Shown here: in pieces, positions 4,667 to 46,371 of the stretch
How positions within the stretch are numbered: the first letter of the stretch is position 1
How the letters are laid out: every line of letters starts with the position of its first letter
Source of the DNA: an uncultured Prevotellaceae bacterium
GTDB lineage: Bacteria; Bacteroidota; Bacteroidia; Bacteroidales; Muribaculaceae
Direction of reading: 5' to 3'
Length of the DNA: 64,000 nucleotides
Assembly (NCBI GenBank): GCA_900319525.1
Contig: ONOU01000014.1
Coordinates: 99,480-163,479 of the forward strand
The notes under the pieces: generated by a model
The model's database searches: none
The model's input: the letters and a program-made list of their open reading frames with translations, nothing else
Told to the model about the DNA's origin: nothing
Made by a program: the position numbers and the translations under genes

Positions 4667-4691
4667 GCTAACTCTAACTAAAGAAGTAAAG

Positions 4692-5991: not shown

Positions 5992-6056
5992 GCTCAGCGG
6001 AAAATTAGCGGGGGCAAGCATGAGGTCGAAAGACCTCGCCAAGGCCAGCGGCCTTG
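5992..6056. repeat. 65-base double-hairpin dispersed repeat, copy 1
   Basis: Base-for-base identical over 65 positions to 56774-56838. It holds two adjacent perfect hairpins, GAGGTC-GAAA-GACCTC and AAGGCC-AGC-GGCCTT. The second copy lies next to a broken REP-associated transposase, so this is probably a REP-like element. It lies between two convergent genes. Confidence 0.85.
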
Positions 6057-6092
6057 CTGTGGCCTTCGACCACACCGCCCCCAAAATCAAGC

Positions 6093-6140
6093 ACGCACAA
6101 CAGGGGTTGTATTGGTTGTCAACCCGTGTTGTGCGTGTCG
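6093..6140. terminator. Long hairpin between convergent genes, probable two-way terminator
   Basis: ACGCACAACAGGGGTTG (6093-6109) and CAACCCGTGTTGTGCGT (6120-6136) pair over 17 positions with one mismatch and a 10-base loop. It lies between the stop of the DKNYY gene and the stop of the leftward thioredoxin-like gene. Confidence 0.7.
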
Positions 6141-6182
6141 TTTGATAAAAGTACTTTAGTCTAATAGGAGCTTGCCTGACGA

Positions 6183-7190: not shown

Positions 7191-7254
7191 ACTCTTGTCT
7201 TTTAGTTATTGATTGACCAGAAAACCCACTTTGTCCCAGAGGGAAATCCATTCT

Positions 7255-10278: not shown

Positions 10279-10334
10279 ATTCTAGAAAATGTTAAATACC
10301 CCCATTGATTGTCTCAAGAGGTGATTCTATCTTT

Positions 10335-13478: not shown

Positions 13479-13761
13479 GAGAAAAATGGGGCAAAAAATG
13501 AAAAAAAACGAACAAATGACTTTGCACATGAGAAAAAATGACTAAATTTGGGGTTTAGAATTTAACATGGGGTATGTCATAATTCTGGCTTGTATCATTG
13601 TCCGTGCTACGCACGGAGAAATTAAACAAAAATTTGTATAAAAATTAAGTAAAACAAATTATTATTTAATTTTTGTGATTTTTGTTAAATTTCACGGCCG
13701 TTAGGCCGATCAACAGTTATGAGGCGAATTTTGACACATCCTCAACAAAAATTTTTTGATT
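13479..13761. other. Gene-free A+T-rich stretch before the DUF349 gene
   Basis: I see no gene here. The one structured piece is a small hairpin CCGTGC-TAC-GCACGG at 13602-13616. A near-identical hairpin, CCGTGC-AAA-GCACGG, lies between genes near 19226-19241. The last 80 bases are A+T-rich leader of the following gene. Confidence 0.6.
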
Positions 13762-15663
13762 ATGATGGAACCGCGTGAACAATCTGAATCGATGAACAAT
13801 CTCGAGAAGGATCAAATCTTGAACACTGAGGCCCAGAATGAGCCGCAAGAAGTTGTGAATGAAGAAGTAAAAGTAGAAGAACCCGTAGCCGCAGCTACCG
13901 AGGAGAAACCCGAGCCCGCTCAGGAGCCCGAGCCCGCCCAGGAGCCCAAGGCCCAAGCAGCGCCCAAGCTGGACCTTGCCGGCAAGAGCAAGGAAGAGCT
14001 GGTTGACCTGATGCGTGAAGCCGCCACCCGCCCCATCGAGGAGGTGAAAGACGACGTGCAGGCCATCAAAGCCGCATTCTTTGCCCTGCGCCGTGAGGAA
14101 GTGGCAAAGGAAAAAGAGGCTTTCCTCGCCAACGGCAACGAAGAGAGCGACTTCACTCCCAAGGAAGACTCCTGCGAGAGCGACCTGAAGGAATTGCTCA
14201 ACGTGCTCAAGGAACGCCGCACCGAATATAACGCAGCCCAGGAAGCCAACCGCGAGGCCAACCTCGAGAAGAAGCGCCAAATCATTGCGCTGATCAACGA
14301 GATTGCCAACGACCCCGACAACATCAACCGTCAGTTCAATCGCGTGAAGCAGCTGCAACAGGACTTCAAGGATGCCGGAGAGGTACCCGCCACTGCCGAC
14401 ACCGAGATCTGGAAAGAGTTCCAGCGCGCCACCGAGCGTTTCTATGACGTCCTGAAGATGAACAAGGAACTGCGCGACTATGACTTCAAGAAGAATCTGG
14501 AGTTGAAGCAGCAACTGTGTGAGGAAGCCGAGGCGCTGGACGACGAGACCGACATCGTTGCCGCCTTCAGGAAGCTGCAGGAACTTCACAACAACTGGCG
14601 CGAGATCGGTCCCGTGGCCAAGGAACTGCGCGAGGAACTGTGGGCACGCTTCAAGGCCGCCTCGAGTGCCATCAACAAGAAGTACCAGACATTCTTTGAG
14701 GACCGCAAGAGCAAGGAGAAAGAGAATGCCGACGCCAAGACCGAGTTGTGTGAGAAGATCGAGCAGATCTCTACCGATAACCTGAAGACCTATGCCCAGT
14801 GGGACGAGGTGACCAAGCAGATCATCGCCCTGCAAGAGGACTGGAAGAAACTGGGTTACGCTTCACGCAAGGCCAATGCCGCCCTGTTTGCCCGCTTCCG
14901 CAAGTCCTGTGACGAGTTCTTTGCCAAGAAGGCCGACTTCTACAAGTCCATGAAGGAGGAGCTCACTTCCAACCTGGCTAAGAAGATTGACCTGTGTGAG
15001 CGCGCCGAGGCGCTGATGGACTCTACCGACTGGAAAGAGGCCACCGACAAGTTCGTCGAGATGCAGAAGGAGTGGAAGACCATCGGTCCCGTCATCAAGA
15101 AGTACAGCGACAACGTGTGGAAACGCTTCATCGCCGCCTGTGACCACTTCTTTGAGCAAAAGAAGAAGCAGAACGTCAACGTCCATGCCGTCGAGCATGA
15201 GAACCTCAAGGCCAAGAAGGAAGTCATCGCCACACTCAAGGCCACTATCGAGGAAGCTGCCGACGATGCCGCACAGACCGTTCGCGACCTGATGGACCGC
15301 TGGCAGGAAATCGGCCATGTCCCCTTCAAGGAGAAGGATAAAATCTATGCTCAGTACCGTGAGCTGGTGGACAAAGCGTTTGACACGCTCAACATGCGCG
15401 GTTCACGTCCACGCGGCGAGGGCGGCTCACGCGGCCAGCGTCAGTCGGGAGGCGACCGCAACCTGAGCGAACGCGACCGCCTGGTGCGCACCTATGAACA
15501 GCGCCTGAGCGAACTGAAGACCTTTGAAAACAACATGGGCTTCCTCACGGCCAATACCAAGAGCGGCAACTCGCTGGTTCAGGAAATGGAGCGCCGCATC
15601 GCCAGGCTCAAGGAGGAAATTGCTGAACTGGAGCAAAGGATCAAGGAAATCGACAACGCCTAA
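13762..15663 (+). CDS. DUF349-repeat coiled-coil protein
   Basis: A cytoplasmic helical protein of 633 residues. A disordered acidic Glu/Pro/Ala-rich head (residues 1-75) is followed by several DUF349 repeats of about 70 residues, each with a W..IGPV/W..LG..P signature: NNWREIGPVAKELREELWARF, EDWKKLGYASRKANAALFARF, KEWKTIGPVIKKYSDNVWKRF and DRWQEIGHVPFKEKDKIYAQY. A Gly/Arg-rich hinge (about 545-565) and a C-terminal coiled coil end the protein. The function of the family is not established. An in-frame TTG lies just upstream at 13756; the ATG at 13762, or the next one at 13765, is the likelier start. Confidence 0.88.
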   Translation: MMEPREQSESMNNLEKDQILNTEAQNEPQEVVNEEVKVEEPVAAATEEKPEPAQEPEPAQEPKAQAAPKLDLAGKSKEELVDLMREAATRPIEEVKDDVQAIKAAFFALRREEVAKEKEAFLANGNEESDFTPKEDSCESDLKELLNVLKERRTEYNAAQEANREANLEKKRQIIALINEIANDPDNINRQFNRVKQLQQDFKDAGEVPATADTEIWKEFQRATERFYDVLKMNKELRDYDFKKNLELKQQLCEEAEALDDETDIVAAFRKLQELHNNWREIGPVAKELREELWARFKAASSAINKKYQTFFEDRKSKEKENADAKTELCEKIEQISTDNLKTYAQWDEVTKQIIALQEDWKKLGYASRKANAALFARFRKSCDEFFAKKADFYKSMKEELTSNLAKKIDLCERAEALMDSTDWKEATDKFVEMQKEWKTIGPVIKKYSDNVWKRFIAACDHFFEQKKKQNVNVHAVEHENLKAKKEVIATLKATIEEAADDAAQTVRDLMDRWQEIGHVPFKEKDKIYAQYRELVDKAFDTLNMRGSRPRGEGGSRGQRQSGGDRNLSERDRLVRTYEQRLSELKTFENNMGFLTANTKSGNSLVQEMERRIARLKEEIAELEQRIKEIDNA

Positions 15664-15713
15664 TCCACATCCGGCAGTGGAGACAGTTCAGTTCAACCCT
15701 GCATCCAGTATAT

Positions 15714-15750
15714 GACGGCTGGGGAGTGTTTATCACTCCCCCGTCGTTTG
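15714..15750 (+). terminator. Terminator-like hairpin after the DUF349 gene
   Basis: GGGGAGTG (15721-15728) pairs with CACTCCCC (15734-15741), extended by GACG/CGTC, followed by the T-rich GTTTGTTG. Confidence 0.65.
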
Positions 15751-15805
15751 TTGAAATAACCGCAACTACCATTTACCACCGCACTACAACTACCACTACG
15801 ACCCA

Positions 15806-17209
15806 ATGAAAAGTAAAGGCAGATATGGCCAATTTGTCAGATGGATATTCAGCATTGTCGATTTGCTGATTGTCAACCTGACGTTCCTTGCGTCCATGTA
15901 CTACTGGCAACGCTCGACAACGCCGGTTGACAGCAACGGGTTGTATTCCAGGCCCGTGTGGCTCGTGCTCAACGTAGCCATGGTAGTGGGGCTGTACTTC
16001 TACAGCAATGTTCACGAGCGCCGCGTCTTCTATGCCGAGAAGGTCGTCGGCCAGGCCGTGAAACTGGTGCTTACCCATGCGGGAATCTTTGTCACGCTCA
16101 CCTCCTTCCTGGGCCCATCCGATGCCCCGTGGCAGCCCGTGCTGTGGTTCTACGTGGTGTTCTTTATCGTATTGTCCACCTGGTGGGTCATCTCCCGACA
16201 GTTTGTGAAGCTGTACCGCAACCGGGGCTTCAACTTCAAGCGTGTGATCGTCATTGGCGGCGGCACCGTGGGTGTGCGCCTGATCAACGAGATGCTGGCC
16301 GATCAAGGCTACGGCTACCACATCGTGGGATTCTTTGACGACAATCCCAAGGCACGGTCGGCCTCGGCAGCCTATCAGGGCACCCTCAACGATGTAGAGC
16401 AGTTTGTCAAGACACATCAAGTGGACGAGATGTTCTGTGCCGTGCCCGACATCGAGGACAATCAGAACGTCTCACGCATGATTCGCATTGCCGACAACAA
16501 TGCGGTCGATTTCTATTACGTGCCACAGTTCGGACGAACGGTAACGCGCCAGTTTGAGTTGCAATCGGTAGGCGACGTGCCCATACTGGCCGTTCACCCC
16601 TACCCCTTGAAAAATCCCATCAACCGCTTTGTCAAGCGGACCTTTGACCTGCTGGTCTCGACCATTGTGCTCATCCTGTCGCCGCTGGTCATCATCCCCA
16701 TCGCCATCGGCATCAAGCTGTCATCGCCCGGCCCCATCTTTTTTGTACAGAAGCGAACCGGATACCGTGGACAGGCCTTTGACTGCTACAAGTTCCGCAC
16801 CATGCGCCTGAATGACGACAGCGACACCAAGCAAGCCGTCAAAGGCGATCCCCGCGTCACACGATTCGGGAATTTCCTGCGTCGCACAAGCATTGACGAA
16901 CTGCCGCAATTCTATAATGTGTGGCGTGGCGAGATGAGCATTGTGGGTCCGCGCCCGCACATGGTGGCCCAAACCGAGCTCTACAGCGAGCTCATCGATA
17001 AATACATGCTGCGCCACACCATCAAGCCTGGTATCACAGGGTGGGCACAGGTGCGTGGCTACCGAGGCCAGACCGAGGAACTCTGGCAGATGGAAAAACG
17101 CGTGGAGTATGATGTGTGGTATGCTGAGAACTGGACTTTCTTCATGGACCTGAAAATCATCTTCCGCACTGTCTGGAATGCGTTGAAGGGTGAGGATAAT
17201 GCGTATTAA
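15806..17209 (+). CDS. Undecaprenyl-phosphate sugar phosphotransferase (WcaJ/WbaP type)
   Basis: Starts assembly of a surface polysaccharide repeat unit by moving a hexose-1-phosphate from a nucleotide sugar to undecaprenyl phosphate at the inner membrane. The 467 residues have four or five N-terminal membrane segments (about 10-125), a Rossmann-like CoA_binding_3 domain (FKRVIVIGGGTVGVRLINEM), and a C-terminal bacterial sugar transferase domain with FVQKRTGYRGQAFDCYKFRTM, RTSIDELPQFYNVWRGEMS and IVGPRPHM. No polysaccharide cluster is seen around it, so it may act as the housekeeping initiating enzyme. The sugar cannot be told from sequence alone. The stop codon runs straight into a heptamer repeat array. 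Confidence 0.93.
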   Translation: MKSKGRYGQFVRWIFSIVDLLIVNLTFLASMYYWQRSTTPVDSNGLYSRPVWLVLNVAMVVGLYFYSNVHERRVFYAEKVVGQAVKLVLTHAGIFVTLTSFLGPSDAPWQPVLWFYVVFFIVLSTWWVISRQFVKLYRNRGFNFKRVIVIGGGTVGVRLINEMLADQGYGYHIVGFFDDNPKARSASAAYQGTLNDVEQFVKTHQVDEMFCAVPDIEDNQNVSRMIRIADNNAVDFYYVPQFGRTVTRQFELQSVGDVPILAVHPYPLKNPINRFVKRTFDLLVSTIVLILSPLVIIPIAIGIKLSSPGPIFFVQKRTGYRGQAFDCYKFRTMRLNDDSDTKQAVKGDPRVTRFGNFLRRTSIDELPQFYNVWRGEMSIVGPRPHMVAQTELYSELIDKYMLRHTIKPGITGWAQVRGYRGQTEELWQMEKRVEYDVWYAENWTFFMDLKIIFRTVWNALKGEDNAY

Positions 17210-17293
17210 GTTTTAAGTTTTAAGTTTTAAGTTTTAAAGTTTTAAGTTTTAAGTTGTAAGTTTTAAGTTTTAAGTTTTAAGTCTTAAGTCTTT
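17207..17293. repeat. TTTTAAG heptamer tandem array
   Basis: About twelve near-perfect copies of a 7-base unit TTTTAAG, beginning in the stop codon of the sugar transferase gene and ending about 30 bases before recQ. Variants (TTTTAAAG, TTGTAAG, TCTTAAG) show that the array is drifting. Confidence 0.95.
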
Positions 17294-17321
17294 AGGCTTC
17301 AGGTGTTTTTAGATTATCAAT

Positions 17322-19172
17322 ATGGGCGGTAATAATGGGTTGACACGTCATGAGTATGCATTGGCGCTGCTGCGGAGCTGTTATGGTTATGACAGCTTTC
17401 GTGGTTCTCAATGGGACATCATCAATCACACGTTGGATGGTGGTGACAGCATTGTGCTCATGCCTACTGGTGGCGGCAAATCACTTTGTTACCAGATTCC
17501 CGGACTGATGAGCGAGGAAGGCTTTGCCGTCGTCATCTCACCACTACTGGCACTCATGAACGACCAGATTGACGCCCTGCAGCAGAATGGTGTACCCGCC
17601 CTAGCCCTCAATAGCGAGAAAAGCGAGAGCGAGAACCGGCAGACGATGGATCTGCTCATGCAGGGCAAGGTCAAGCTGCTCTATATATCTCCCGAGAAGT
17701 TGCTCAGCGAGATAGGCCGCTGGTCCACAAGCATCACCCAGCGCATCAGCCTGTTTGCCGTTGATGAGGCGCATTGCATCTCGCAGTGGGGGCATGACTT
17801 CCGCCCCGAGTACACCCAGCTCGGGACCCTCAAGCAGCACTTCCCCCAGATTCCCGTGATGGCCCTCACCGCCACTGCCGACCGAATCACGCGCGATGAT
17901 ATCGCCAAGCAACTCAACATCCCCGAGGCCAGACTGTTTATCAGTTCCTTTGACCGGCCGAACATCTCCCTTAACGTGGTGACCGGCTCATCAGGCCGTC
18001 AAAAGCTGCGCCAGATTGTCCAGTTCATCAACCTGCACCAGGGCGAGAGCGGCATCATCTACTGTCTGCGCCGCAAGGACACCGAGAACATGGCAGTCAA
18101 CCTGAGCCGCCTGGGCATCAGCGCTAAGGCCTTTCATGCGGGCATGAGCGTTAGGGACAAGCAGCAGGTGCAGCGCAGCTTCATCAACGAAGACGTGAAA
18201 GTGGTGTGCGCCACGGTCGCCTTCGGCATGGGCATCGACAAGAGCAACGTGCGCTACGTCATCCACAGCAACATGCCGCGCAACATCGAGAGTTACTATC
18301 AGGAAATCGGGCGTGCCGGACGCGACGGCCTGCCAGCCGAGGCCCTGATGTTCTACAACTACGGCGACGTGGTCACCTTGCAGCAGTTTGCCCAGCAGTC
18401 GGGTCAGGTTCAAGTCAATATGGACAAGCTGCGCAGCATGCAGCAGTTTGCCGAGAGCGGCGTGTGCCGCCGTCGCATCCTGCTCAGCTACTTCAACGAG
18501 CGGTTTGACCACGATTGCCACAACTGTGACGTGTGTGACAACCCGCCGGAACGTTTCGACGGCACCACCTTTGCCCAGATGGCGCTGAGCGCCATCAAGC
18601 GCACTGACGAGCAGATCGGCATGTATGCCGTCACCGACATCCTGCGCGGGATGCGCAAGGGTGAGATCATCGACAAAGGCTACGACAGGCTCAAGACCTT
18701 CGGTGTCGGTCACGACTTGAGCAACTATGAGTGGAATGCCTACCTGTTGCAGATGCTGCAGCTGGGACTGTTTGATGTCGCCTATGACGACAACAAGCAC
18801 CTGAAAATCACCGAATATGGCAACGAGGTGCTGTTTGGCCGCCAACAGATTGAGCTGAATCGCGTGCAGCGCCGCAAATTCACCGCCAAGAAAGAGCCCG
18901 CCACGCCAACTATCGTCACCCAGGAGACGGCACCTGCCAAGCGACTCGACCGGGAACTGTTCGAGAAACTGCGCGACGTGCGCAAGGCCATTGCCCAGGC
19001 CAGCAAGATTGCCCCCTACATGGTCTTCAGCGACAAGACCCTCACGGCCATGGCCACCGAGAAGCCCACCACCCAAGCCGAGTTTGGCATCCTCTACGGT
19101 GTGGGCGACGTGAAGTGCCAAAAATACTGGCGTACTTTTACCGCCGCCATCCGCAGCCACCTTGGGCTATAA
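17322..19172 (+). CDS. recQ: ATP-dependent DNA helicase RecQ
   Basis: A 3'-5' SF2 helicase in recombination and fork repair. The 616 residues carry all parts of RecQ: Walker A PTGGGKS at 48-54, [17 protein letters not shown] from 148, TATA in motif [30 protein letters not shown] and the [10 protein letters not shown] motif VI. The zinc site is [12 protein letters not shown] followed by CHNCDVC. A winged-helix domain and a C-terminal HRDC-like domain ([14 protein letters not shown]) complete it. It follows the heptamer array, with 112 bases from the preceding stop. The start at 17322 gives the expected N-terminus, which is one turn longer than in E. coli. Confidence 0.96.
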
Positions 19173-37751: not shown

Positions 37752-38512
37752 AGGCGCTCATCTTTGCCGCAGGACTGGGAACACGCTTGCGTCCCTTGAC
37801 CGACGACCGACCTAAAGCCATGGTCGAGATCGCCGGCCGCCCCATGCTGCAACACGTCATCGAGCGCGTGGCGGCCGCTGGATTTGACGACATCACCATC
37901 AACATCCACCACTATGGGCAACTGATTATCGACTTCCTGGAGCGAAACAACAACTTCGGCCTCAACGTCCACATCAGCGACGAGCGCGGCCAGCTGCTCG
38001 ACACCGGCGGCGGCATCCTCAAGGCACGCCAGTGGCTGGATGGCGACGAGCCCTTCCTAGTGCACAACACCGATATCATCAGTTCGCTGGACCTGAAGGC
38101 TTTCTACGACTATCACATCCAGCACGATGCCCTGGCGACGATACTTGTCAAGGAGCGCAAGACACAGCGTTACCTCCTCTTTGACAATAACGACCGCATG
38201 TGCGGCTGGACCAACAAGGCCACGGGCGAATTCAAGCCCGATGCCGAGAAACTTCAAGGGCTTGACCTGAAGGAACTGGCCTTCGGCGGATTGCACATCA
38301 TCTCACCGAATATTTTCCCGTTGCTGGAACGTTACCGCCGTCAGCAGGGAGAAAAGTTCTCAATCATCCCCTTCTACATCAACGAGTGCAAGCACCACCT
38401 CATCCACGGCTACCATCCCGAGGGTGACTACCTGTGGCTAGACATCGGCAAACCCGAGACACTAGCCCAGGCACAGGAATTACTATTGGCTAATCCAAGT
38501 AACTCACGCTAA
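37748..38512 (+). CDS. Nucleotidyltransferase, MurU-like
   Basis: A 254-residue sugar-1-phosphate nucleotidyltransferase. AAGLGTRLRPLTDDRPKAM at 8-26 is the nucleotide-binding signature, followed by GRPMLQHVIERV, the metal/substrate region LVHNTDIIS, and FGGLHIISPNIF. Length and motifs fit the short MurU/HddC class rather than long GlmU or RmlA enzymes. ATG overlaps the stop of the kinase/RapZ gene (ATGA), so translation is coupled. It most likely makes UDP-MurNAc or a similar activated sugar; the base and sugar are not provable here. Confidence 0.85.
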   Translation: MKALIFAAGLGTRLRPLTDDRPKAMVEIAGRPMLQHVIERVAAAGFDDITINIHHYGQLIIDFLERNNNFGLNVHISDERGQLLDTGGGILKARQWLDGDEPFLVHNTDIISSLDLKAFYDYHIQHDALATILVKERKTQRYLLFDNNDRMCGWTNKATGEFKPDAEKLQGLDLKELAFGGLHIISPNIFPLLERYRRQQGEKFSIIPFYINECKHHLIHGYHPEGDYLWLDIGKPETLAQAQELLLANPSNSR

Positions 38513-38754
38513 GTCGCAAAGACGCGAAGTTTTATTGCTCGCTGCGCGAGAGGTCAAGAGTCTAGGGTATAAAGTTTATAGAGGCTGACGCATTCTGAAC
38601 CTCGCGCTAAGCCGCTAAGTCGCTAAGGTTTTGAATGGGTTGTATTAAGTTATTGATATTCAGTTATTTGTTTAATTTTGTAATTCCGATTTTGGAAAGA
38701 AAAGAACCGCTAAAAAGAACCGATTTTGTTGAACTTTTTAGTACATTTTCAATC
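38513..38754. other. Left junction of the integrated element
   Basis: No gene. The host part has a small hairpin CTCG-CTG-CGCGAG region near 38541-38552 and a GCTAAG-rich repeat (CGCTAAGCCGCTAAGTCGCTAAGG, positions 38604-38627, written here only as a landmark of three CGCTAAG units). CCGCTAAGT at 38612-38620 recurs at the right end (45800-45808). Inside the element AAAAGAAC occurs twice with a 13-base period (38700-38707 and 38713-38720), again mirrored at the right end. TAATTTTG at 38673-38680 may be the integrase -7 box. Confidence 0.5.
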
Positions 38755-40425
38755 ATGCAAACATTAAACAATGTGAAATTGAGCCTCAATTTCAACGTGA
38801 GACAACCCAACGCAAAAACGGCAAGCCCTATATATTGCGTGGTAAAGATTGACACCAAGCAGTTAAAAGTCCCCACGGGGCAAAAAGTCAATGCTTGGCA
38901 ATGGGACAAGCAACGGCAGCAATGCAGCGTTAACGCCAACATGGTAGCCACGGAACAGGCCAACAACGCCAATGCCAATCGAATTATTAACGCCATCCGT
39001 ATGGCCTACGATGATTTATTTATGTACCTTTGCGGGAGCGGGGACACTTACACCGCCAACGAGATAGAGAAATTAATCCGTGAGACCATCACGGCAAAAA
39101 CCGACAATGATAACAACATGAGCAACCCTAATGCGATACCGCCAAAGCGGACAATTACCGCCACAACATTATTAAAGAAAGCCTTTGCCACCTATTACCC
39201 CGAGGGCAAGGGCAAGGCAAGCACTTATTTTGTGAATGTTGGTTTGTTCAATGCCTATTTGGATTATATCAAGGCAAGCGCAAAGGGTGACACCCCGAAA
39301 AACTTTTTAAGTCAAACAGCCGTTAATGAATATCAGCAGACACTCAAGGCTGAGGGGCTTGCAGCCACGACCATAAACAAGCGCGTGGGCATAGTTAAGC
39401 GATTGATTAACCATCTTGCAGGACTGAGTGAGGGCGTAAAATACGGCATCCATCGAGTAGTTACCGAGAGCGTGAAAGACAGCCGCAGCCACGGAGAGAA
39501 CAAGAAATTTTCTCTCACGGACAAGCAACTGCAAGCCATAGCAGACTGTAACAACTTGACCGACCAAGAAAAGCAATATAGAGACCTTTTTTTGCTGCAA
39601 ATCGAATGCGGGCAACGTGTTAGCGACCTGCCAAAAGTATTGCAGTGCATGGGTAAAATTGAAGAGTATGAGGGTCAAAAATCATTAGTCATTATGACCC
39701 AAAAAGAGAACATCCCCGCCACCATCTTTTTAACCCCGTTTGTTGAACAAATGCAAAGCCGTTACCAAGCAGGTGAATTCAAAGACGTACATAACAAGTA
39801 TTTTTCGCAGCACTACAACGAGAAAATAAAGACCGTTGCACAAAAGGCAGGACTTAATGAAAGTGTTACCTATATGGATGATAAGGCAGGGGCAAAGGTT
39901 GAACAAGTCCGACCGCTTTACGAGTTGGTAACTACCCACATTGCCCGCCATACATTCATTACCCGCAAACTCAAAGAGGGCTACAGCCCCGACAAACTTG
40001 CCTACATGACGGGACACGCTGATGATACAATGATTAAACGTATTTACAGCCATTTGACCGCAGCCGACAAAGCAAAGGCCGCAACACTTGAATTAATGAG
40101 GGTCAAGGGCGCAACGGAGACCGAGACGAAAAACAGCGATGAGACCGCCAACGCCATCATAGCGGAACAAGCAAAAGAGAACTACAAGCAGCGCAACATG
40201 ATTACAAGCCAACGGCAGATGATAGCCATCGAAAAGCAGAGACGAGAAATTAGCGAGTTATTGAAGAATGCAGAGGATGAAAACATGAAAGATTTGCTTA
40301 CACTCGTACAAATGCACCTGGATCACGGAGACGTGGAGCAAGCCCAAGAAGTAATAAAAGACCTTGTGAAATATGGTGCAGGGGTTCAACTTTTGGACGA
40401 TGAAGATGCCCGAGAATTTGAATAA
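38755..40425 (+). CDS. Tyrosine recombinase / phage integrase
   Basis: Integrates and excises the element. The 556 residues contain an arm-type N-terminal region (LSLNFNVRQPNAKTASPIYC, the Arm-DNA-binding fold of Bacteroidetes integrases), a SAM-like core-binding domain (about 135-245), and the catalytic domain with Arg288 (CGQRVSDL), His395 and Arg398 (HIARHTF), His421 (MTGHAD) and the nucleophile Tyr431 (IYSH). A C-terminal extension of about 110 residues is a coiled coil (TANAIIAEQAKENYKQR onward), longer than usual. The frame is open further upstream, but the ATG at 38755 directly precedes the family start MQTLNNVKL. A terminator follows. Confidence 0.92.
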   Translation: MQTLNNVKLSLNFNVRQPNAKTASPIYCVVKIDTKQLKVPTGQKVNAWQWDKQRQQCSVNANMVATEQANNANANRIINAIRMAYDDLFMYLCGSGDTYTANEIEKLIRETITAKTDNDNNMSNPNAIPPKRTITATTLLKKAFATYYPEGKGKASTYFVNVGLFNAYLDYIKASAKGDTPKNFLSQTAVNEYQQTLKAEGLAATTINKRVGIVKRLINHLAGLSEGVKYGIHRVVTESVKDSRSHGENKKFSLTDKQLQAIADCNNLTDQEKQYRDLFLLQIECGQRVSDLPKVLQCMGKIEEYEGQKSLVIMTQKENIPATIFLTPFVEQMQSRYQAGEFKDVHNKYFSQHYNEKIKTVAQKAGLNESVTYMDDKAGAKVEQVRPLYELVTTHIARHTFITRKLKEGYSPDKLAYMTGHADDTMIKRIYSHLTAADKAKAATLELMRVKGATETETKNSDETANAIIAEQAKENYKQRNMITSQRQMIAIEKQRREISELLKNAEDENMKDLLTLVQMHLDHGDVEQAQEVIKDLVKYGAGVQLLDDEDAREFE

Positions 40426-40450
40426 AACCGATTCCGACCGACAACGATAT

Positions 40451-40485
40451 AAACCGCTTGACCCCTTGACGGGTTGGGCGGTTTT
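40451..40485 (+). terminator. Terminator after the integrase gene
   Basis: AAACCGC (40451-40457) pairs with GCGGTTT (40478-40484) around an inner ACCC/GGGT pair, followed by T. A near-copy ends the capsid gene at 45429-45462. Confidence 0.8.
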
Positions 40486-40495
40486 TGCGTCATGG

Positions 40496-40515
40496 GGGCA
40501 AAGCGTCAAGGGGTG
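40496..40515. repeat. 20-base element motif, copy 1 of 4
   Basis: GGGCAAAGCGTCAAGGGGTG, identical at 42985-43004 inside the replication gene. Two variants lie at 45471-45490 and 45561-45580. Confidence 0.9.
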
Positions 40516-40522
40516 GAACATG

Positions 40523-40561
40523 GGCAAATGAATGGCGAAACAAGACCCTTTGCAGGTGGGG
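40523..40561. repeat. 39-base direct repeat of the element, left copy
   Basis: Identical over 39 bases to 45588-45626; begins GGCAAATGAATGGCGAAAC and ends CCCTTTGCAGGTGGGG. Both copies follow a terminator and a 20-base motif. Confidence 0.95.
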
Positions 40562-40992
40562 ACGTGTGTCAAGACCTAAAGCGCACACCCACGACCACAA
40601 GCAAGCCCCACCATCGAGAGAACGAGAGCAGCAAGCACAAAGGCAGGGGCGCACACATTCAGCCAATGAGCAGCCGCACCGATCCCGAGCCGTTAACGAG
40701 GGGCAAAAACGGTTGGTGAATTTTTGCCGTTTGTGTAAATGAAAGTGGGGGGCGGTTTAACGTGTTCAGCATCGAAAAAACACCCTCCCCCCCATATTTG
40801 CAGAGAGCGAGGGCAAGACGTAAATTAACGCTGAATGATTGGCGAAATATCACCATCAAGACCGTGACAAACGGCAGTACCTTTGCAGATGATGAAAAAA
40901 ATTGAAAAAATCTTTACTTTTTGGAAACTACAGGCTATTTATTATTAAACGGGATTCCAAACCGCAATAATACGCTAATTTAAAACACATTC

Positions 40993-41226
40993 ATGGGCAG
41001 AGCAAAGACGGAAATACACAAGCAGAAAATCAGCGAGGGAGTTAAACGGTACTACGAAAATGAAACGCCCGAGAAACGAGCCGAGCGCATCAAAAATTTG
41101 TCGGAGTATCGACAGCGAGAGACCAAAGTATATCGATACATCAAACGACATATTGACGTGCTCAAGCGAGTAGTAGAAGAAGTGAACCGAGAGAAAAAAG
41201 ACAACGACCCCAACAAGGGCGAATGA
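40993..41226 (+). CDS. Small basic helical protein of the element
   Basis: A 77-residue, highly charged protein: MGRAKTEIHKQKISEGVKRY, then YENETPEKRAERIKNLSEYR and a second helical half ending in KKDNDPNKGE. No membrane segment. The QKISEGVKRYYEN stretch vaguely resembles NUMOD3-type DNA-binding segments, which is not enough for a call. Its place between integrase and replication gene would suit an excisionase or repressor, but nothing visible proves that. Confidence 0.55.
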   Translation: MGRAKTEIHKQKISEGVKRYYENETPEKRAERIKNLSEYRQRETKVYRYIKRHIDVLKRVVEEVNREKKDNDPNKGE

Positions 41227-41232
41227 TGATAT

Positions 41233-41295
41233 AAGGTTGACCGTAATTCTATTTTTATAGACTATATTTCAAATGTTTTTACAGCGGTCAACCTT
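41233..41295 (+). ncRNA. Structured leader module C
   Basis: AAGGTTGACCG (41233-41243) and CGGTCAACCTT (41285-41295) form a perfect 11-base closing stem. Inside, TCTAT-TTTT-ATAGA (41248-41261) is a perfect hairpin. It is the first of three tandem modules before the replication gene. It could act as RNA or as a DNA cruciform. Confidence 0.5.
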
Positions 41296-41305
41296 CAGGT
41301 TATAA

Positions 41306-41380
41306 TGTGGTGGTGTATGCCCTTAACGGGCAGGTGAAATCATCCTCAACACCTTAGCCAATACGCACCACAATTTTTTT
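41306..41380 (+). ncRNA. Structured leader module A, three-way-junction fold
   Basis: Closing stem TGTGGTG (41306-41312) with CACCACA (41366-41372), continued by GTAT (41315-41318) with ATAC (41361-41364). Hairpin 2: GCCC-TTAAC-GGGC (41319-41331). Hairpin 3: AGGTG (41332-41336) with CACCT (41350-41354), loop AAATCATCCTCAA. A T-run follows the closing stem, so it could end a short RNA. TTTACA-N17-TATAAT (41278-41306) just upstream resembles a sigma-70 promoter. Confidence 0.55.
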
Positions 41381-41421
41381 TAAGAAGTTGAAAAAGGTAG
41401 CGAATTACCTTTATATGATAT

Positions 41422-41484
41422 AGTGGCGGGTAGTCTTTAGACGTGGCGTTTTCATCCCTCAGAGCCATACCAACGCCCGCCACT
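41422..41484 (+). ncRNA. Structured leader module B, same fold as module A
   Basis: Closing stem AGTGGCGGG (41422-41430) with CCCGCCACT (41476-41484). Hairpin 2: GTC-TTTA-GAC (41433-41442). Hairpin 3: TGGC (41444-41447) with GCCA (41464-41467), loop GTTTTCATCCCTCAGA. The loop octamer TCATCCCT (41452-41459) is the exact complement of AGGGATGA (41551-41558), which contains the start codon of the replication gene. TACCTTTA at 41406-41413 is a near -7 box that would start RNA just before this module. Confidence 0.6.
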
Positions 41485-41554
41485 TTAAATTAAATTGTTG
41501 GTCAAATGGGATGATGCAGGGATATAAAATAAAGTTGGTAAATACTCAAAAGGG

Positions 41555-43579
41555 ATGATTTCTAATTACATTAATTACTCCGTCTCAACCGAGACACAAG
41601 ACCGCAACGGAGACCCCAACGAAGTAGGCAAAATAACATGGCATGAAAAGCAGGGCACTATCTCCACACTAATAGAAGATATAAAAAACGGTTACGCCTA
41701 TTGCGGCAACTTCTACCATCATGGGGCTACCTTTTCAATGAAGCAAAAGACCCGAGACAATTTCAAAAGCACATACTTTATCAGTTTTGATTTTGACGCT
41801 GTAAGACTGACAGCGGGGGAGTTTTACGGCTGCATGATAGGCACGGAAATAACCCCGTCAATCATCTACACCACGGCAAACGATGGACATTACAAGGTGG
41901 GCAAAAATGAGACCTATTGCAACCGATACCGTGTAATATATCTGCTTGATGAACCGATAACAACGGCAGAGACCTACACCGCCATTCACACGGCATTAAA
42001 GAACGACATTGCCGCAACGGTGAACGATGAGAATATCTATAATGATAAGTCGGACAATGATGGGCAGGCCGAGAGGTTTTACTTTGGCAACGTCAATGCA
42101 GAGATATATGCCGATATGATGGATGATGTTATTACCCCATTGGCGTGGCTGTTTGATAGGTACGGAGTTATGGAAAAGTGCCAAAAAGTGGGATTAGGTG
42201 AATATATAGAGAGCGAAAGTAATATACACCCAAGCCCCCAAAATGGCACTTTTTCAAATGCGGGTATATGGGAGGCGTTCACGTCTGACTACAGCAAAAA
42301 GGGGACTACATTCTATAGCCTTTATAAAATGTATCGAGGGCATTTGCAGCCACTACCCACGGCAGAGGATATAACACCCTATCTTGAGGCAAGCGACCCA
42401 CACAAATTATATATTGAAGTTCCGGCCAACTTCAAAGAGATACGGCACAAGAAAGCAAAGACACAAAAGATGATAAACGGGGAAATGCGGGACGTGTGGA
42501 CTAACTACAAATATAAGGATGGGGAACTTAGACACGCCAAAATATTCAACTACCTCATGCGGTTACGCACAATCACCCCGAGCGCAACAAAGGGGCTGTT
42601 ATTGTGGGCAGCGGTCGGGTACATGATAGAGCATATCGACAACAGCAAGGACGCAAAAACCAAAGCGCAAATCATGCGAATAGTTGAGGATGTTTTGAGC
42701 AAAGACATTGCCAAATATGGGCGTTTATGGGACAATCAAAACAGAGCCTTTAAGGTGAACCGAGAAGAGGCAGCAAATAGAAATATATCCGTTAGACGTG
42801 CGGGGCTTGATGCACAACACGAGAGAGCCACGGACAAAAAGAAAGAGAAATACCAAATCATTGCAGCACATTACGACCCATCACGGAGCGATAAGGACAA
42901 TTTAAAGATACTTTCAAATGCGGGGCTATCCGTCACAGCGGATTACCTCAAGACGTGGAAAAAGGACAACGGACTAACAAAGCAGGGCAAAGCGTCAAGG
43001 GGTGAAAAGATAGCAGCGCATTACGACCCATCACGGAGCGATAAGGACAATTTGCAGGCTCTCAAAGATGCAGGGGTTAATATCTCCATGCGAACCCTAC
43101 AAAGGTGGAAATCTGAAAACGGCTACACGAAACAGCGGGCAAAGAACCCACAAGAGCCAAATAGAGCCGTTGAGGGCGTTTTTAATGCCGTGGGTGAAGA
43201 CTTGACCAATGAGCAAACGAGGCGCAAGCAGGGCGCAAATGTGGACGTATTGAGCACGTTTGAAATAATGGAACTTGCAGCAAATTTTCTCAACGGTGGA
43301 ACGGCTGAACATGAGACCGTGAAACCATTGGAGACCTGCAAGGATTTTGACCCGTGGGACTTCTACAAGAGCCACAACCCCGAGGGCGTGAAGTACGGGC
43401 GGGACGTAATCAAAGACCGTGAACAAGCGGCAAGGCGTTGGCAAGAGATGGAAACAAGCGGCATAGACTACAACAGCATGACGGACGATGAATTTTGGCA
43501 AATGCTGTTTGACGAGAGCAAGCAGGAAGTTCGCACCGCTGCAACGCTCGATGATGAAATAGAGGACGAGCCGTTTTGA
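41555..43579 (+). CDS. Replication protein with primase-like N-terminal domain and tandem HTH repeats
   Basis: A 674-residue protein, probably the element's replication initiator. Residues 70-135 show an archaeo-eukaryotic primase-like pattern: YFISFDFDAVR (Asp79, Asp81 as the DxD motif), PSIIYTTANDGHYKVG, and YRVIYLLDEPIT (Asp132). A helical region of 300 residues follows. Residues 436-483 and 486-533 are two copies of a unit IAAHYDPSRSDKDNL, then W..ENG.TKQ, each likely a helix-turn-helix; their DNA is identical over 35 bases with a 150-base period. No helicase Walker motif is seen, unlike P4-type primase-helicases. The acidic C-terminus is unremarkable. A family name is not certain. Confidence 0.68.
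   Translation: MISNYINYSVSTETQDRNGDPNEVGKITWHEKQGTISTLIEDIKNGYAYCGNFYHHGATFSMKQKTRDNFKSTYFISFDFDAVRLTAGEFYGCMIGTEITPSIIYTTANDGHYKVGKNETYCNRYRVIYLLDEPITTAETYTAIHTALKNDIAATVNDENIYNDKSDNDGQAERFYFGNVNAEIYADMMDDVITPLAWLFDRYGVMEKCQKVGLGEYIESESNIHPSPQNGTFSNAGIWEAFTSDYSKKGTTFYSLYKMYRGHLQPLPTAEDITPYLEASDPHKLYIEVPANFKEIRHKKAKTQKMINGEMRDVWTNYKYKDGELRHAKIFNYLMRLRTITPSATKGLLLWAAVGYMIEHIDNSKDAKTKAQIMRIVEDVLSKDIAKYGRLWDNQNRAFKVNREEAANRNISVRRAGLDAQHERATDKKKEKYQIIAAHYDPSRSDKDNLKILSNAGLSVTADYLKTWKKDNGLTKQGKASRGEKIAAHYDPSRSDKDNLQALKDAGVNISMRTLQRWKSENGYTKQRAKNPQEPNRAVEGVFNAVGEDLTNEQTRRKQGANVDVLSTFEIMELAANFLNGGTAEHETVKPLETCKDFDPWDFYKSHNPEGVKYGRDVIKDREQAARRWQEMETSGIDYNSMTDDEFWQMLFDESKQEVRTAATLDDEIEDEPF
42869..43053. 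repeat. 150-base tandem duplication inside the replication gene
   Basis: Bases 42869-42903 and 43019-43053 are identical over 35 positions, marking an in-frame duplication of a 50-residue unit. The two copies have diverged outside that core, so the identical core is either recent conversion or under DNA-level constraint. Confidence 0.88.
42985..43004. repeat. 20-base element motif, copy 2 of 4, within coding DNA
   Basis: GGGCAAAGCGTCAAGGGGTG, identical to 40496-40515. Here it encodes GKASRG between the two HTH units. Confidence 0.9.
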
Positions 43580-43662
43580 TGCCCCTTGAAAAAAATTTCA
43601 TTGACCACTGATTTTTTAGTGAGTAGAGACTATTTATTATAAAAGACAAAAACGATTTAGAC

Positions 43663-43824
43663 ATGAGTATATCGAGCATTATTTTATTGGTTGTTGCATA
43701 TCTGTTCGCTGTCTGCCTTTTGTCAGTAATTGCAAATGAGGTCAAGCAGGTGAACAAGCAACTAAAGGACATTTGGAGAACACAAAAGCATAGAAATAAA
43801 CCCCAAAATATCGAGTACCGATGA
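43663..43824 (+). CDS. 53-residue single-span membrane peptide
   Basis: A short gene: MSISSIILLVVAYLFAVCLL starts with one membrane helix (residues 5-24), then a charged tail (NEVKQVNKQLKDIWRTQKHR and on). The stop overlaps the next start as ATGA, a sign of translational coupling and so of real coding. Holin-like or membrane-anchoring roles are possible; nothing is proven. Base composition matches the element. Confidence 0.65.
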   Translation: MSISSIILLVVAYLFAVCLLSVIANEVKQVNKQLKDIWRTQKHRNKPQNIEYR

Positions 43825-44099
43825 AAGCAATAGAAAAACGAATAATTGACGACCCAATTAACAACATTGCGACCCGTGAATTAGCCATTAACCAAGCAAA
43901 GAAGTGGCGCAAAGCGGCAAAGACAGCAAAGGAAAAACGAGACCTTGACAGCACAATTTCAAGGCTTGAGGGTGAAGTTAGAGCCATTAAGGAAAAGAAG
44001 AATTTAGCGGAGCAGAAACAAGCCCTTTTACATCGTCTCGACAAGATACAAAAGGACTTCAACGACTTTTGCAGGGAATCCGCAAAGGGACTGCTTTAA
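43821..44099 (+). CDS. 92-residue coiled-coil protein of the element
   Basis: A basic, almost fully helical protein with heptad repeats: NQAKKWRKAAKTAKEKRDLD, then STISRLEGEVRAIKEKKNLA and a last helix ending FCRESAKGLL. It starts inside the stop codon of the membrane peptide and ends nine bases before the next gene. Its position two genes before the capsid gene and its coiled-coil nature would suit a scaffold or size-determination factor, but that is a guess from place and shape. Confidence 0.6.
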   Translation: MKAIEKRIIDDPINNIATRELAINQAKKWRKAAKTAKEKRDLDSTISRLEGEVRAIKEKKNLAEQKQALLHRLDKIQKDFNDFCRESAKGLL

Positions 44100-44108
44100 T
44101 AACACGGC

Positions 44109-44447
44109 ATGAACGGCAGAGCAATGAATTATAGGAACTACAAGGACATCGAGCAAAGAGCCAATCAAATAGGCTTTGCACTTGCCAAAATCGTGAATAA
44201 CTATTGTGACGTGCTGACCCCAACGGGGCTAAAAGAGTATATCAGCAAGGGTGAACTTTTGGGGATGCTATACTTTGACGGAGCAGCGAACATGATAAAG
44301 TTGAGACCCGATTACCGAGACTTGATTTTTGACGCTGTTTCACTCACTGAGTTAAGCAGGGCATTAGATGCAGAGCAAGACACGCCGATCGGCAGAGACA
44401 AGCAGCAGCACCCCGAGCAGTCAGGGAGCGACCAAGAGAGCAAATAA
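44109..44447 (+). CDS. 112-residue protein of the element
   Basis: Unrecognised. Helical N-terminal half (YRNYKDIEQRANQIGFALAK), a middle stretch YISKGELLGMLYFDGAANMI, and a disordered polar C-terminus (DKQQHPEQSGSDQESK). No signal or membrane segment. The first ATG gives MNGRAMNYRN; the second, at 44124, is equally possible. It lies 23 bases before the capsid gene, in one operon. Confidence 0.6.
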   Translation: MNGRAMNYRNYKDIEQRANQIGFALAKIVNNYCDVLTPTGLKEYISKGELLGMLYFDGAANMIKLRPDYRDLIFDAVSLTELSRALDAEQDTPIGRDKQQHPEQSGSDQESK

Positions 44448-44470
44448 TAATATCAAATACTTTCATTATA

Positions 44471-45355
44471 ATGAGACAAGCAAATTTATTTGGTAAAATC
44501 CAAGATTTTATTAACAAAAAGACGGTGAACAACACCGACACTAAAGACCTATTCCGACGTGCCCAAATCGCCCCAATCGGGCAGATACAAATGAGGGGTG
44601 CAATTACCGCAAACGGCTATGCAGGTACAGCCGTTAACCGCCCCGAGGGACAACAGCGAGCCGCAAACCTAATAGAGCAGTTGGGCGTTAAATACATTGA
44701 GGGTCTAACGGCAAATTTCAGTTACCCACGTTTTGACGGTAATACATCCGAGTGGGTAGGTGAAACCGAGAGCGGCAACGTATCAAGCACGACCGTTGAG
44801 GGCGTGAAACTGACCCCACGCCGTTTGTTGTCTTATGTGGAATACTCCAACGAGGTAGTATTAAATCCAAACACCGATGTAGCGGGAGCGATTGAGGATG
44901 ATTTGATTGCAAGCATTTGGGAAAAAGTGCAAGATACGATGTTTAACGACATCTATACGGCTCAAGGTGCTACCACGATAGCCAACTATAACAATATTGT
45001 GGCGTTTGAACTTGCAGCAAGCCAAAAGAAGATTAACAACGGGGTTTATCTCGTTAGCCCGATTGCAGCAAGCAAGTTAAAGAAGATGATGAACGGAAAC
45101 ACCCCCGTAATGAATAACGGAATGATAAACGGCTACAAGGTAGTAGAAACTCCAAGCCTTGACGGTGAAAAGGTGATTTTTGGCGACTTTTCAAAATTGC
45201 TTTTGGGGCAGTTTGGCGGGTATGACGTGACGTGTGACAATGTGACAATGCAGCACGTTGCGACCATCAAGTTAATTATAAATTCTTGGTGGGATTGGGG
45301 GAAAATCGACCCTAACGCCTTTGCATTTGCCACGACCGCAACAACAAACAACTAA
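44471..45355 (+). CDS. HK97-fold phage major capsid protein
   Basis: A 294-residue capsid protein. Hallmarks of the HK97 family: RRAQIAPIGQIQMRGAI near the start of the shell domain, FSYPRFDGNTSEWVGETESG (E-loop region), GVKLTPRRLLSYVEYSNEVV with the following DDLIASIWEKVQDTMFNDIY (spine helix), and the A-domain stretch GYKVVETPSLDGEKVIFGDF, SKLLLGQFGGYDVTCDN. Only about 40 residues precede the shell domain, so there is no long delta (scaffold) domain, and no protease gene is nearby. The place of a single intact capsid gene in a 7 kb integrated element points to a capsid-forming or capsid-modifying satellite. An encapsulin is less likely given the integrase context. Confidence 0.82.
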   Translation: MRQANLFGKIQDFINKKTVNNTDTKDLFRRAQIAPIGQIQMRGAITANGYAGTAVNRPEGQQRAANLIEQLGVKYIEGLTANFSYPRFDGNTSEWVGETESGNVSSTTVEGVKLTPRRLLSYVEYSNEVVLNPNTDVAGAIEDDLIASIWEKVQDTMFNDIYTAQGATTIANYNNIVAFELAASQKKINNGVYLVSPIAASKLKKMMNGNTPVMNNGMINGYKVVETPSLDGEKVIFGDFSKLLLGQFGGYDVTCDNVTMQHVATIKLIINSWWDWGKIDPNAFAFATTATTNN

Positions 45356-45428
45356 CTAATTGGCAAACGGCTGTTTTTATTTTCTTCATAGTCTGTTTGA
45401 CGCTGTTACCATTCATTGAGTTGTTTTC

Positions 45429-45462
45429 AAACCGCTTGACCTTGACGGGTTGGGCGGTTTTT
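45429..45462 (+). terminator. Terminator after the capsid gene
   Basis: AAACCGC (45429-45435) pairs with GCGGTTT (45454-45460), followed by T. Near-identical to the integrase terminator. Confidence 0.8.
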
Positions 45463-45470
45463 CCGTTAGG

Positions 45471-45580
45471 GGGCAAGCCTCAAGGGGTGGAGGGGTGAAA
45501 ATGGATGGCGAATAATGCCCCATGTGGATAAATGGCGAATCGGTTTGCACGGTGAAAAGAGGGCAAAGCCTCAAGGGGTG
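45471..45580. repeat. 20-base element motif, copies 3 and 4
   Basis: GGGCAAGCCTCAAGGGGTGG at 45471-45490 and GGGCAAAGCCTCAAGGGGTG at 45561-45580; compare 40496-40515 and 42985-43004. Confidence 0.88.
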
Positions 45581-45587
45581 GGACGTA

Positions 45588-45626
45588 GGCAAATGAATGG
45601 CGAAACAAGACCCTTTGCAGGTGGGG
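45588..45626. repeat. 39-base direct repeat of the element, right copy
   Basis: Identical to 40523-40561 over all 39 bases. Confidence 0.95.
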
Positions 45627-45685
45627 GCGGTATCGAGTTTTTAGGCTGATATGAGCCGAGACCATTCGCGAAAAAGTGTTAATGA

Positions 45686-45717
45686 TTTGGTTATATGGGA
45701 AATAGTGCCTACCTTTG
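45686..45717 (+). promoter_or_regulatory. Outward promoter at the right end of the element
   Basis: TTTG (45686-45689), 20 bases, TACCTTTG (45710-45717): full consensus. It points across the putative att core towards the FMN-binding gene at 45916; no element gene lies between. Confidence 0.8.
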
Positions 45718-45837
45718 TAAAAGAACAGCGGAAAAGAACTTGACATTTTGGAATTTCTTAAACAACTGAAACACAACAAATTAATCACAAAACTCTAAAC
45801 CGCTAAGTTTTCTTTTAAACTTTTGAGTCAATTGTCA

Positions 45838-45910
45838 ATCAAAACTAAAAACTAAAAACTAAAAACTAAAAACTAGAAACTAGAAACTAGAAACTAAAAA
45901 CCAGAAACTG
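45838..45910. repeat. AAAAACT / TAGAAAC heptamer tandem array
   Basis: About ten 7-base units (AAAAACT, then AGAAACT variants) in the leader of the FMN-binding gene, ending six bases before its ATG. Confidence 0.95.
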
Positions 45911-45915
45911 AATAT

Positions 45916-46371
45916 ATGAAAAAGACTATCATCATCGCAGCTATCATGCTGCTCGTAGCAGGCACCGTATCGCTCGATGCCAAAACCAAGAAAAGTGCCA
46001 AGAAAGCTAAAGCCAGCGCCACTCAGGTCATCTACACTGGCGAAATCGCCAAGAAAGTGATCGGTTACAACGGCCCTGTGCCCTTGAACATCACCATCAA
46101 GAACGGCGTTATCGAGAACATCGAGGTGCTTGACAATCAAGAGTCTCCCGGCTACCTCAAGCGCGCCACCGCCAAGGTGCTGCCACAGTACATCGGCAAG
46201 ACCGTAGCCGAGGCCAAGAAACTCAATGCCGACGTCGCAACAGGAGCTACCTACACGAGCAAGGCCCTCATCCAGAACATCCAGATGGGTCTGGATCAGG
46301 CCAAGTCCAAGTCCACCTCGACCAGCAAGAAGAAAGCCGGCAAGAAAAAGGCGACCAAGAAACGTCGTTAA
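45916..46371 (+). CDS. FMN-binding domain protein, exported
   Basis: A 151-residue envelope protein. A signal peptide (MKKTIIIAAIMLLVAGTVSLDA) leads to an FMN_bind domain (about 40-130): GPVPLNITIKNGVIENIEVL and NADVATGATYTSKALIQNI. The ATGATYTS segment matches the site where ApbE attaches FMN to a threonine, so it is probably a flavoprotein of an extracytoplasmic electron-transfer chain. Lys/Ala-rich stretches flank the domain on both sides, the last 25 residues being nearly all Lys, Ser and Thr. Its leader is the heptamer array. Confidence 0.86.
   Translation: MKKTIIIAAIMLLVAGTVSLDAKTKKSAKKAKASATQVIYTGEIAKKVIGYNGPVPLNITIKNGVIENIEVLDNQESPGYLKRATAKVLPQYIGKTVAEAKKLNADVATGATYTSKALIQNIQMGLDQAKSKSTSTSKKKAGKKKATKKRR

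Follow-up and report, generated by a model that had tools for sequence, protein, structure and literature searches.

Gene Content and Boundaries of the Element

The window analyzed here is the whole 64,000-nucleotide stretch of contig ONOU01000014.1 from an uncultured Prevotellaceae bacterium assigned by GTDB to the Muribaculaceae. Positions 38607 to 45808 of this window constitute a discrete and intact integrated element of ∼7.2 kb, a candidate phage satellite, with seven open genes that all lie on the plus strand. From 5' to 3', these genes encode a tyrosine integrase, the small protein orf77, and a replication-type protein, followed by short products of 53, 92, and 112 amino acids and an HK97-type capsid protein of 294 amino acids. 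The features are given below, together with identities to two other compact capsid-bearing elements, L015 from genome G030 and L016 from genome G078 (L and G denote loci and genomes).

38607..38627, plus strand: left attachment region, within the dispersed host repeat CGCTAAG, sharing a 14-nucleotide repeat (one mismatch) with 45795-45808
38701..38720, plus strand: two copies of AAAGAAC, 13 nucleotides apart, candidate integrase arm-type sites; same layout near both ends here and in L016
38755..40425, plus strand: tyrosine integrase with arm-DNA-binding domain (PF00589, E 6e-9; PF17293)
40705..40798, plus strand: conserved noncoding block; similar block 5' of the orf77-like gene in L015, L016, L074, and L078
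40993..41226, plus strand: orf77, small conserved protein with a weak NUMOD3-like motif; homologues in L015 (47%) and L016 (43%)
41227..41554, plus strand: noncoding stretch 5' of the replication gene, structured according to its RNA fold
41555..43579, plus strand: replication-type protein with two C-terminal tri-helical repeats; 46% identical to L015, 44% to L016
43663..43824, plus strand: 53-amino-acid protein with one predicted membrane-like stretch (open frame)
43821..44099, plus strand: 92-amino-acid protein, predicted coiled-coil-like; 59% identical to L015, 33% to L016
44109..44447, plus strand: 112-amino-acid protein, fold unassigned; homologue with 38% identity in L016, none that is clear in L015
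44471..45355, plus strand: HK97-type capsid protein of 294 amino acids without delta domain (PF05065, E 5e-16; phrog_617, E 1e-27)
45668..45771, plus strand: conserved right-end stretch with AAAGAAC at 45720 and 45733; 87.5% identical to the right end of L016
45795..45808, plus strand: right attachment site CTAAACCGCTAAGT; the empty site L088 keeps CGCTAAGTTTTCTTTTAAAC unbroken

Scans against Pfam and PHROGs give no convincing match of the seven proteins to terminase, portal, protease, tail, or lysis families. This agrees with the preliminary description of the locus, which saw none of these genes and reported an integrase, a replication gene, a trio of small genes, and a single capsid gene of the HK97 type, all intact and codirectional. 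The six named genes are confirmed as open frames, but the list was incomplete, as the conserved orf77 at 40993-41226 had been overlooked. The integrase start given there, 38635, is replaced by a probable start at 38755, because two relatives aligned with the integrase start at this point. The family scans also match none of the seven proteins to a relaxase or cargo enzyme, nor to a regulator family of the AlpA or Stl type. All genes run in one direction. A small regulator outside the matched families, such as orf77, is nevertheless conceivable.

The ends of the element carry a repeat that is exact over 9 nucleotides and extends to 14 nucleotides with one mismatch. The matching short repeats described earlier are therefore present, but their motif is dispersed across the host's own genome, which makes them weak evidence when taken alone; as sole proof of the attachment sites, they were rejected. 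The ends are better supported by empty loci and by paired sites. The element is absent from 15 of 15 relative loci examined, in which the aligned left and right flanks lie at most ∼170 bp apart. These 15 belong to 20 fetched loci, from which L085 (the element's own locus) and L101 to L104 were left out; the remaining rows of the flank search contain one flank only or flanks on separate contigs. L088 retains the right-end sequence without interruption, as expected of a preinsertion site. Pairs of AAAGAAC, spaced by 13 nucleotides, are found near both ends of the window element as well as of L016. The four end copies in L016 are the only ones within its 7.87 kb, and the window element has two extra single copies, both inside genes. 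Paired AAAGAAC at both ends was obtained in 0 of 2000 sequences simulated with a first-order Markov model. The right-end stretch common to the two elements, 104 nucleotides in length, stops 24 nucleotides before the right repeat. The attachment target is a dispersed repeat for the window element and a different sequence for L016, with paired end sites in both. Intergenic repeats of CGCTAAG units and AAAACT arrays occur throughout the host genome and its relatives (e.g., window positions 38507-38627 and 45801-45921).

The Capsid Protein and the Small Proteins Encoded Upstream

The capsid protein covers positions 34 to 275 of the 280 positions of PF05065. It is 72% identical to the capsid protein of L015 and 50% identical to that of L016, compared to 27 to 29% for the capsid proteins of prophages from the same genus. 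In the alignment, the element capsids begin near a conserved FSLVKAIR stretch of the genus phage capsids. The region preceding this stretch in the phage proteins probably represents the delta domain, followed by a putative cleavage site. The stop-to-stop frames around the element capsids of 294, 302, and 311 amino acids measure 334, 309, and 316 amino acids; they leave at most ∼40 codons on the N-terminal side and hence no room for a delta domain.

In a phylogenetic tree with 12 other capsids, the three element capsids form one clade with a support of 100/100 and a branch length of 2.09. L081 and L082 were left out of this tree because of their interrupted frames, and L083, L117, and L105, whose capsids are fused to a protease, were trimmed by 190, 190, and 200 residues, respectively. 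The ratio of nonsynonymous to synonymous substitutions (dN/dS) between the window element and L015 is lowest for the capsid (0.12), followed by the coiled-coil protein (0.18) and by the replication protein and orf77 (0.22 each); these are rough values, with dS at 1.8 to 2.3 against L015 and most comparisons with L016 saturated. The element capsids thus look to be under purifying selection. A structure model of the capsid protein from a two-sequence alignment has a mean predicted local distance difference test score (pLDDT) of 30.

The 92-amino-acid coiled-coil-like protein is a candidate assembly partner or scaffold of the capsid protein, with no scaffold family being matched by the element proteins. 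Of the 101 genomes of the genus, the 98 without such an element give no strong match to a profile built from the coiled-coil proteins of the three elements; three other matches, with E values of 0.004 to 0.006, look like chance. Small hydrophobic proteins occupy the same place in L015 and L016 as the 53-amino-acid protein does in the window element.

Related Elements and Phages

Relatives of the capsid are contained in 6 of the 101 genus genomes, three of them in compact elements and three in phages. The compact elements, namely, the window element, L015, and L016, measure 7.2, 7.8, and 7.9 kb by their repeats; each occupies a site of its own, and their recombinases are of two unrelated types. 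The integrase of L016 is related to that of the window element, but the insertion site is another one, flanked by a 15-nucleotide repeat; L015 encodes a serine recombinase, is flanked by a repeat of 14 nucleotides, and adjoins a gene read as BspA-like. A core order of orf77, replication protein, small hydrophobic protein, coiled-coil protein, and capsid is kept in all three. No terminase, portal, or protease is seen beside the capsid in L015 and L016 by sequence reading.

Phages that combine terminase, portal, and protease with a related capsid are found in 3 of the 101 genomes. In G067 (L017 with L134 and L135), the terminase and the S78 protease are assigned by Pfam and the portal by likeness, and in G097 (L019 with L133), all three are assigned by Pfam; the phage of G093 (L018) carries terminase, protease, and portal and is cut by the contig end. 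L017 and L019 feature a longer capsid as well as tape-measure and tail genes, as read from their sequences. These two full prophages span ∼26 kb by their outermost genes, so that the compact elements reach ∼0.3 of this length. A related replication protein is carried by L019 and a related integrase by L018. L018 and L019 were also considered as tail-less counterparts of capsid-forming phage-inducible chromosomal islands (cfPICIs). This was rejected for L019, the flank of which shows tape-measure and tail genes beyond the replication gene, so that G097 holds a full prophage; L018, which starts at its contig end, may or may not be of this kind.

Outside the genus, the capsid profile matches 20 of 397 family, 9 of 393 order, and 3 of 395 class genomes. 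Among the surroundings read there is no further element of this kind, those of 11 of the 20 family, 2 of the 9 order, and 2 of the 3 class matches (14 distinct genomes) having been left unread. The contigs of G618 and G692 are of insufficient length for an assignment; the odd case of G476 (L116) is described below. Profiles A1, A2, A4, and A9 were built from element and phage rows, which they match by construction; only matches and absences among other rows are informative. A scan of genome contigs yields one relative, L015. Among viral contigs, the capsid alone finds no relative, nor does the replication-protein alignment, and the capsid alignment finds one, L105, which reads as an ordinary phage. 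The INPHARED phages contain 31 records matching the capsid, all below 60% identity (23 to 26% among the 20 matches listed), and plasmids contain 3 capsid records with 20 to 25% identity; neither collection has a match for the replication protein.

The replication-protein profile matches 34 of 397 family genomes, including elements in which no capsid is found. In L074, which lies next to a BspA-like gene, the replication protein is accompanied by a serine recombinase, an orf77-like gene, and small proteins, but there is no capsid. The replication protein is also present in L073 and L078, in neither of which a capsid is seen; the contig of L078 ends there. The genomes of L073, L074, and L078 are not among the six capsid-matching genomes of the genus. 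The noncoding block before orf77 is common to the window element, L015, L016, L074, and L078 and is thus kept in capsid-bearing and capsid-less elements alike. These capsid-less cousins have the recombinase type, the replication protein, the noncoding block, and the orf77-like gene in common with the capsid-bearing elements, so that the capsid seems to be an optional module within a larger family of elements.

The Integrase, the Replication Protein, and the Noncoding Blocks

The window integrase is 57% identical to the integrase of L016 and 37% identical to that of L018. Residues R288, H395, R398, H421, and Y431, which we take to be the catalytic set, are invariant across the three enzymes. 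The conserved noncoding block at 40705..40798 is a candidate replication origin or packaging signal. A NUMOD3 match within the orf77 family is restricted to the L015 homologue, with an E value of 0.019 that fails to reach the significance cutoff. The RNA fold of 41226-41560, upstream of the replication gene, has a z score of -2.2, with 2 of 100 shuffled sequences being equally stable. Positions 41424-41542 are 76% like L016, and Rfam gives no match for this noncoding stretch.

The replication protein belongs to a family of 15 members in which D79, D81, R124, R126, and D164 are invariant. The DxD and RxR positions among them presumably correspond to prim-pol-like N-terminal motifs. No firm family is found in Pfam, PHROGs, NCBIfam, or PDB, the last searched with two profile searches, and the closest primase signal is the match of 1 of the 15 relatives to a PHROG primase at an E value of 0.0076. 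The earlier designation as "primase-like" is thus not established, with the motifs as its only basis. Structure models of the protein from two-sequence alignments have a mean pLDDT of 41, with residues ∼431 to 520 reaching 57 to 82.

Comparison with Known Satellites

The closest parallel in the literature, which is cited here by PMC number from excerpts of the respective papers, is the protein Ccm of SaPIbov5. Ccm is a lone capsid homologue with 24% identity to the helper capsid protein (PMC8569155). It takes pentamer positions, leads to T=4 shells, and forms no shells alone (PMC8569155, PMC5052747). Its delta domain is shorter than that of the helper protein, with 87 compared to 128 residues, and is cleaved off (PMC8569155). 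SaPIbov5 and the window element are alike in having one HK97-type capsid homologue with low identity to the phage capsids (24% for Ccm and its helper, 27 to 29% for the window element and candidate relatives). The rest is supplied by a phage for SaPIbov5 and presumably also for the window element. They differ in that Ccm has the cleaved 87-residue delta domain and the element capsid has none, in the phylum of the host, and in the lack of a recognized repressor here.

Capsid homologues are also reported for PmCI172 and EcCICFT073, phage-inducible chromosomal islands (PICIs) of the Gammaproteobacteria (PMC6092414, PMC6893505), which resemble the window element in this respect as far as the excerpts go. 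In EcCICFT073, deletion of the capsid gene neither lifted interference nor affected transfer (PMC6092414). The Escherichia coli PICIs carry AlpA and Pri-Rep, according to the same excerpt (PMC6092414), neither of which is recognized in the window element. PICIs have approximately one-third of the size of their helpers (PMC6092414), close to the ∼0.3 of the related prophage span found for the window-type elements. A lone capsid homologue in a satellite is thus known from SaPIbov5, with homologues in PmCI172 and EcCICFT073, and the strategy is less unusual than the preliminary description supposed.

The window element carries the capsid only, unlike the cfPICIs, and has no convincing match to terminase, portal, or protease. 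The cfPICIs contain a fuller head and packaging module with these three components. They produce their own capsids (PMC11389934, in excerpt). With the P4-type satellites, the window element shares an integrase, a replication protein, and a small genome, but P4 sizing proceeds via Sid, whereas the window element has a capsid homologue. In P4-type satellites, the size of the capsid is set by a protein of the satellite, as is proposed here; the P4 protein in question, Sid, is a scaffold and not a capsid homologue, and the alpha protein of P4 is a primase-helicase. The same-genus phages L017, L018, and L019 have a related capsid in common with the element but differ from it by their terminase, portal, S78 protease, and longer capsid. 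The Charybdis elements were considered and set aside, being marine and without a known virus hallmark in the excerpt (PMC12324425).

In searches of openly licensed literature, no description of such a satellite came up for the Bacteroidales, Bacteroidetes, Bacteroides, the rumen, or the Muribaculaceae, with most subscription papers lying outside this scope. In its excerpt, a paper on Porphyromonas phages names satellites only in a reference (PMC10367356). Within the reach of these searches, four features are apparently new, namely, the host group, the capsid without delta domain, the coiled-coil partner linked to it, and the replication protein; the strategy itself is known. Capsid-pirating satellites are well studied in Staphylococcus, Vibrio, and the Gammaproteobacteria; the window element is a plausible satellite in a new host group.

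A Proposed Satellite Redirecting Helper Capsid Assembly and Its Alternatives

The interpretation favored here, with a probability of roughly 55%, is that the element is a phage satellite whose capsid homologue would redirect the capsid assembly of a helper phage in a manner similar to that of Ccm. In its favor stand the empty loci, the end-site pairs common to the window element and L016, the constant core order of three elements at three sites, the single capsid clade with its low dN/dS, the missing room for a delta domain, the restriction of the coiled-coil protein to these elements, the existence of related phages in the genus together with the size ratio of ∼0.3, and the precedent of Ccm. 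The preliminary description had likewise proposed a satellite with its own shell protein, and this is the best-supported reading, the dependence on a helper being predicted. It had contrasted this with loci always standing beside terminase, portal, and tail genes, or fixed at one site in all relatives. Instead, three capsid elements stand without these genes, and there are three sites, two recombinase types, and 15 of 15 empty loci. The same gene order with different flanks, which it had proposed as a check, is found for the core order in L015 and L016, albeit with only three members in all.

In the proposed mechanism, infection by a related phage would cause the element to excise, to replicate via its own initiator protein, and to express the capsid homologue. 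The delta-less capsid protein would enter the growing shell of the helper at some positions, as HK97-type subunits without a delta domain would not be expected to form shells unaided, and would impose a small shell size. Such a shell would have room for the element but not for the genome of the helper, an effect that Ccm has in the case of SaPIbov5. The coinherited coiled-coil protein may assist in assembly, and portal, protease, terminase, and tail would be supplied by the helper. The delta domain is reportedly essential for HK97 assembly, to judge by the title of one study. Together with the failure of Ccm to form shells alone, this makes coassembly or a separate scaffold likelier than an unaided shell.

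Several points weigh against this interpretation. The known members number just three, and a metagenome-assembled genome is the source of at least one of them. The element's own genome, which is 94.5% complete, contains no terminase of the related phage type and no Pfam portal match, the same search being positive in 4 of 14 control genomes; a resident helper is therefore not evident. No packaging site shared with L017, L018, or L019 was found, the longest exact noncoding match being 14 nucleotides. Since Ccm keeps a delta domain and the element capsid has none, the mechanism need not equal that of Ccm. The structure models of the capsid and replication proteins are too poor to indicate a fold.

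More tentatively, and against the odds, the capsid protein could be "born mature": it would have dropped the fused scaffold and the protease and would assemble together with the coiled-coil protein, perhaps giving a shell of very small size. If true, this would represent a simplified HK97 assembly route that evolved within a parasite, in a new satellite family of the Bacteroidota. A lone capsid without scaffold or protease raises the question of whether an HK97-type shell, or a resized helper shell, can form from a delta-less subunit and a partner.

It is unlikely, though conceivable, that the element forms its entire shell from the capsid protein that it encodes, the coiled-coil protein replacing the delta domain as a separate scaffold and the helper giving only portal, terminase, and tail. 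The joint lack of delta domain and protease, the coiled-coil protein traveling with the capsid, the extent of the PF05065 match described above, and the similar sizes of the three elements (∼7.2, 7.8, and 7.9 kb) are consistent with such a self-built shell, against which stand the missing portal of its own, the unmatched scaffold family, and a coiled-coil assignment read from sequence alone.

The capsid might, rather improbably, serve mainly as an antiphage weapon that poisons the capsids of invaders and protects host and element without packaging the latter. Expression of Ccm alone strongly cuts the helper titer (PMC5052747, in excerpt), and no packaging signal common with the genus phages was found. 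Nevertheless, the integrase with its expected residues, the paired end sites, and the replication protein argue for transfer. Nor is it at all probable that an integrative element spread by conjugation or general transduction uses the capsid as an encapsulin-like compartment or other cargo. The capsid-less relatives with their shared recombinase type, orf77-like gene, replication protein, and noncoding block would accord with this, but no relaxase or cargo enzyme is matched among the seven proteins, and the capsid matches are phage capsid families. A decayed or domesticated prophage retaining one structural gene is very improbable and was rejected: although prophages of the same genus contain proteins related to the capsid, the integrase, and the replication protein, the same reduced gene set recurs in three elements at three sites, whose capsids form the single clade on its long branch of 2.09, and all genes are open, dN/dS is low, and both ends are present.

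The larger family of elements, in which recombinases can be exchanged and the capsid module may be present or missing, would offer a natural series for the gain of capsid control by satellites.

Further Observations

L015 contains a NUMOD4-HNH endonuclease gene (6120-6623) directly before the capsid; by sequence reading, similar HNH-type proteins precede the small terminase of L017 and of L018. The serine recombinases of L015 (near 8037-9404) and L074 (near 13678-18846) are related and both lie beside BspA-like leucine-rich repeat genes; a common target gene family is possible, with the 14-nucleotide repeat of L015 not found in L074. In G097 (L019 5495-9289 and L133 8450-15130) and in L018 (8772-11333), a recombinase gene and the host boundary come right after the tail-tube gene. 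With the tape-measure and tail genes at the opposite end of the G097 prophage, the attachment site seems to split the structural cluster.

The L116 stretch (G476:C12:30000-49999) of a distant Bacteroidales genome contains, at ∼1-10486, a compact region with two integrases and a replication initiation protein, for which PHROGs indicates a tape measure, a head protease, and a 329-amino-acid capsid. This capsid seems to be delta-less, and no terminase or portal is seen in the stretch. L081 (G130) and L082 (G160) are phage regions with a related capsid in which the late genes are broken by in-frame TAG or TAA codons, possibly owing to stop-codon reassignment or poor sequence.

In the window element itself, a 69-nucleotide direct repeat with 93% identity follows the integrase gene (40496-40564) and the capsid gene (45561-45629), and lies near two similar inverted-repeat sequences.

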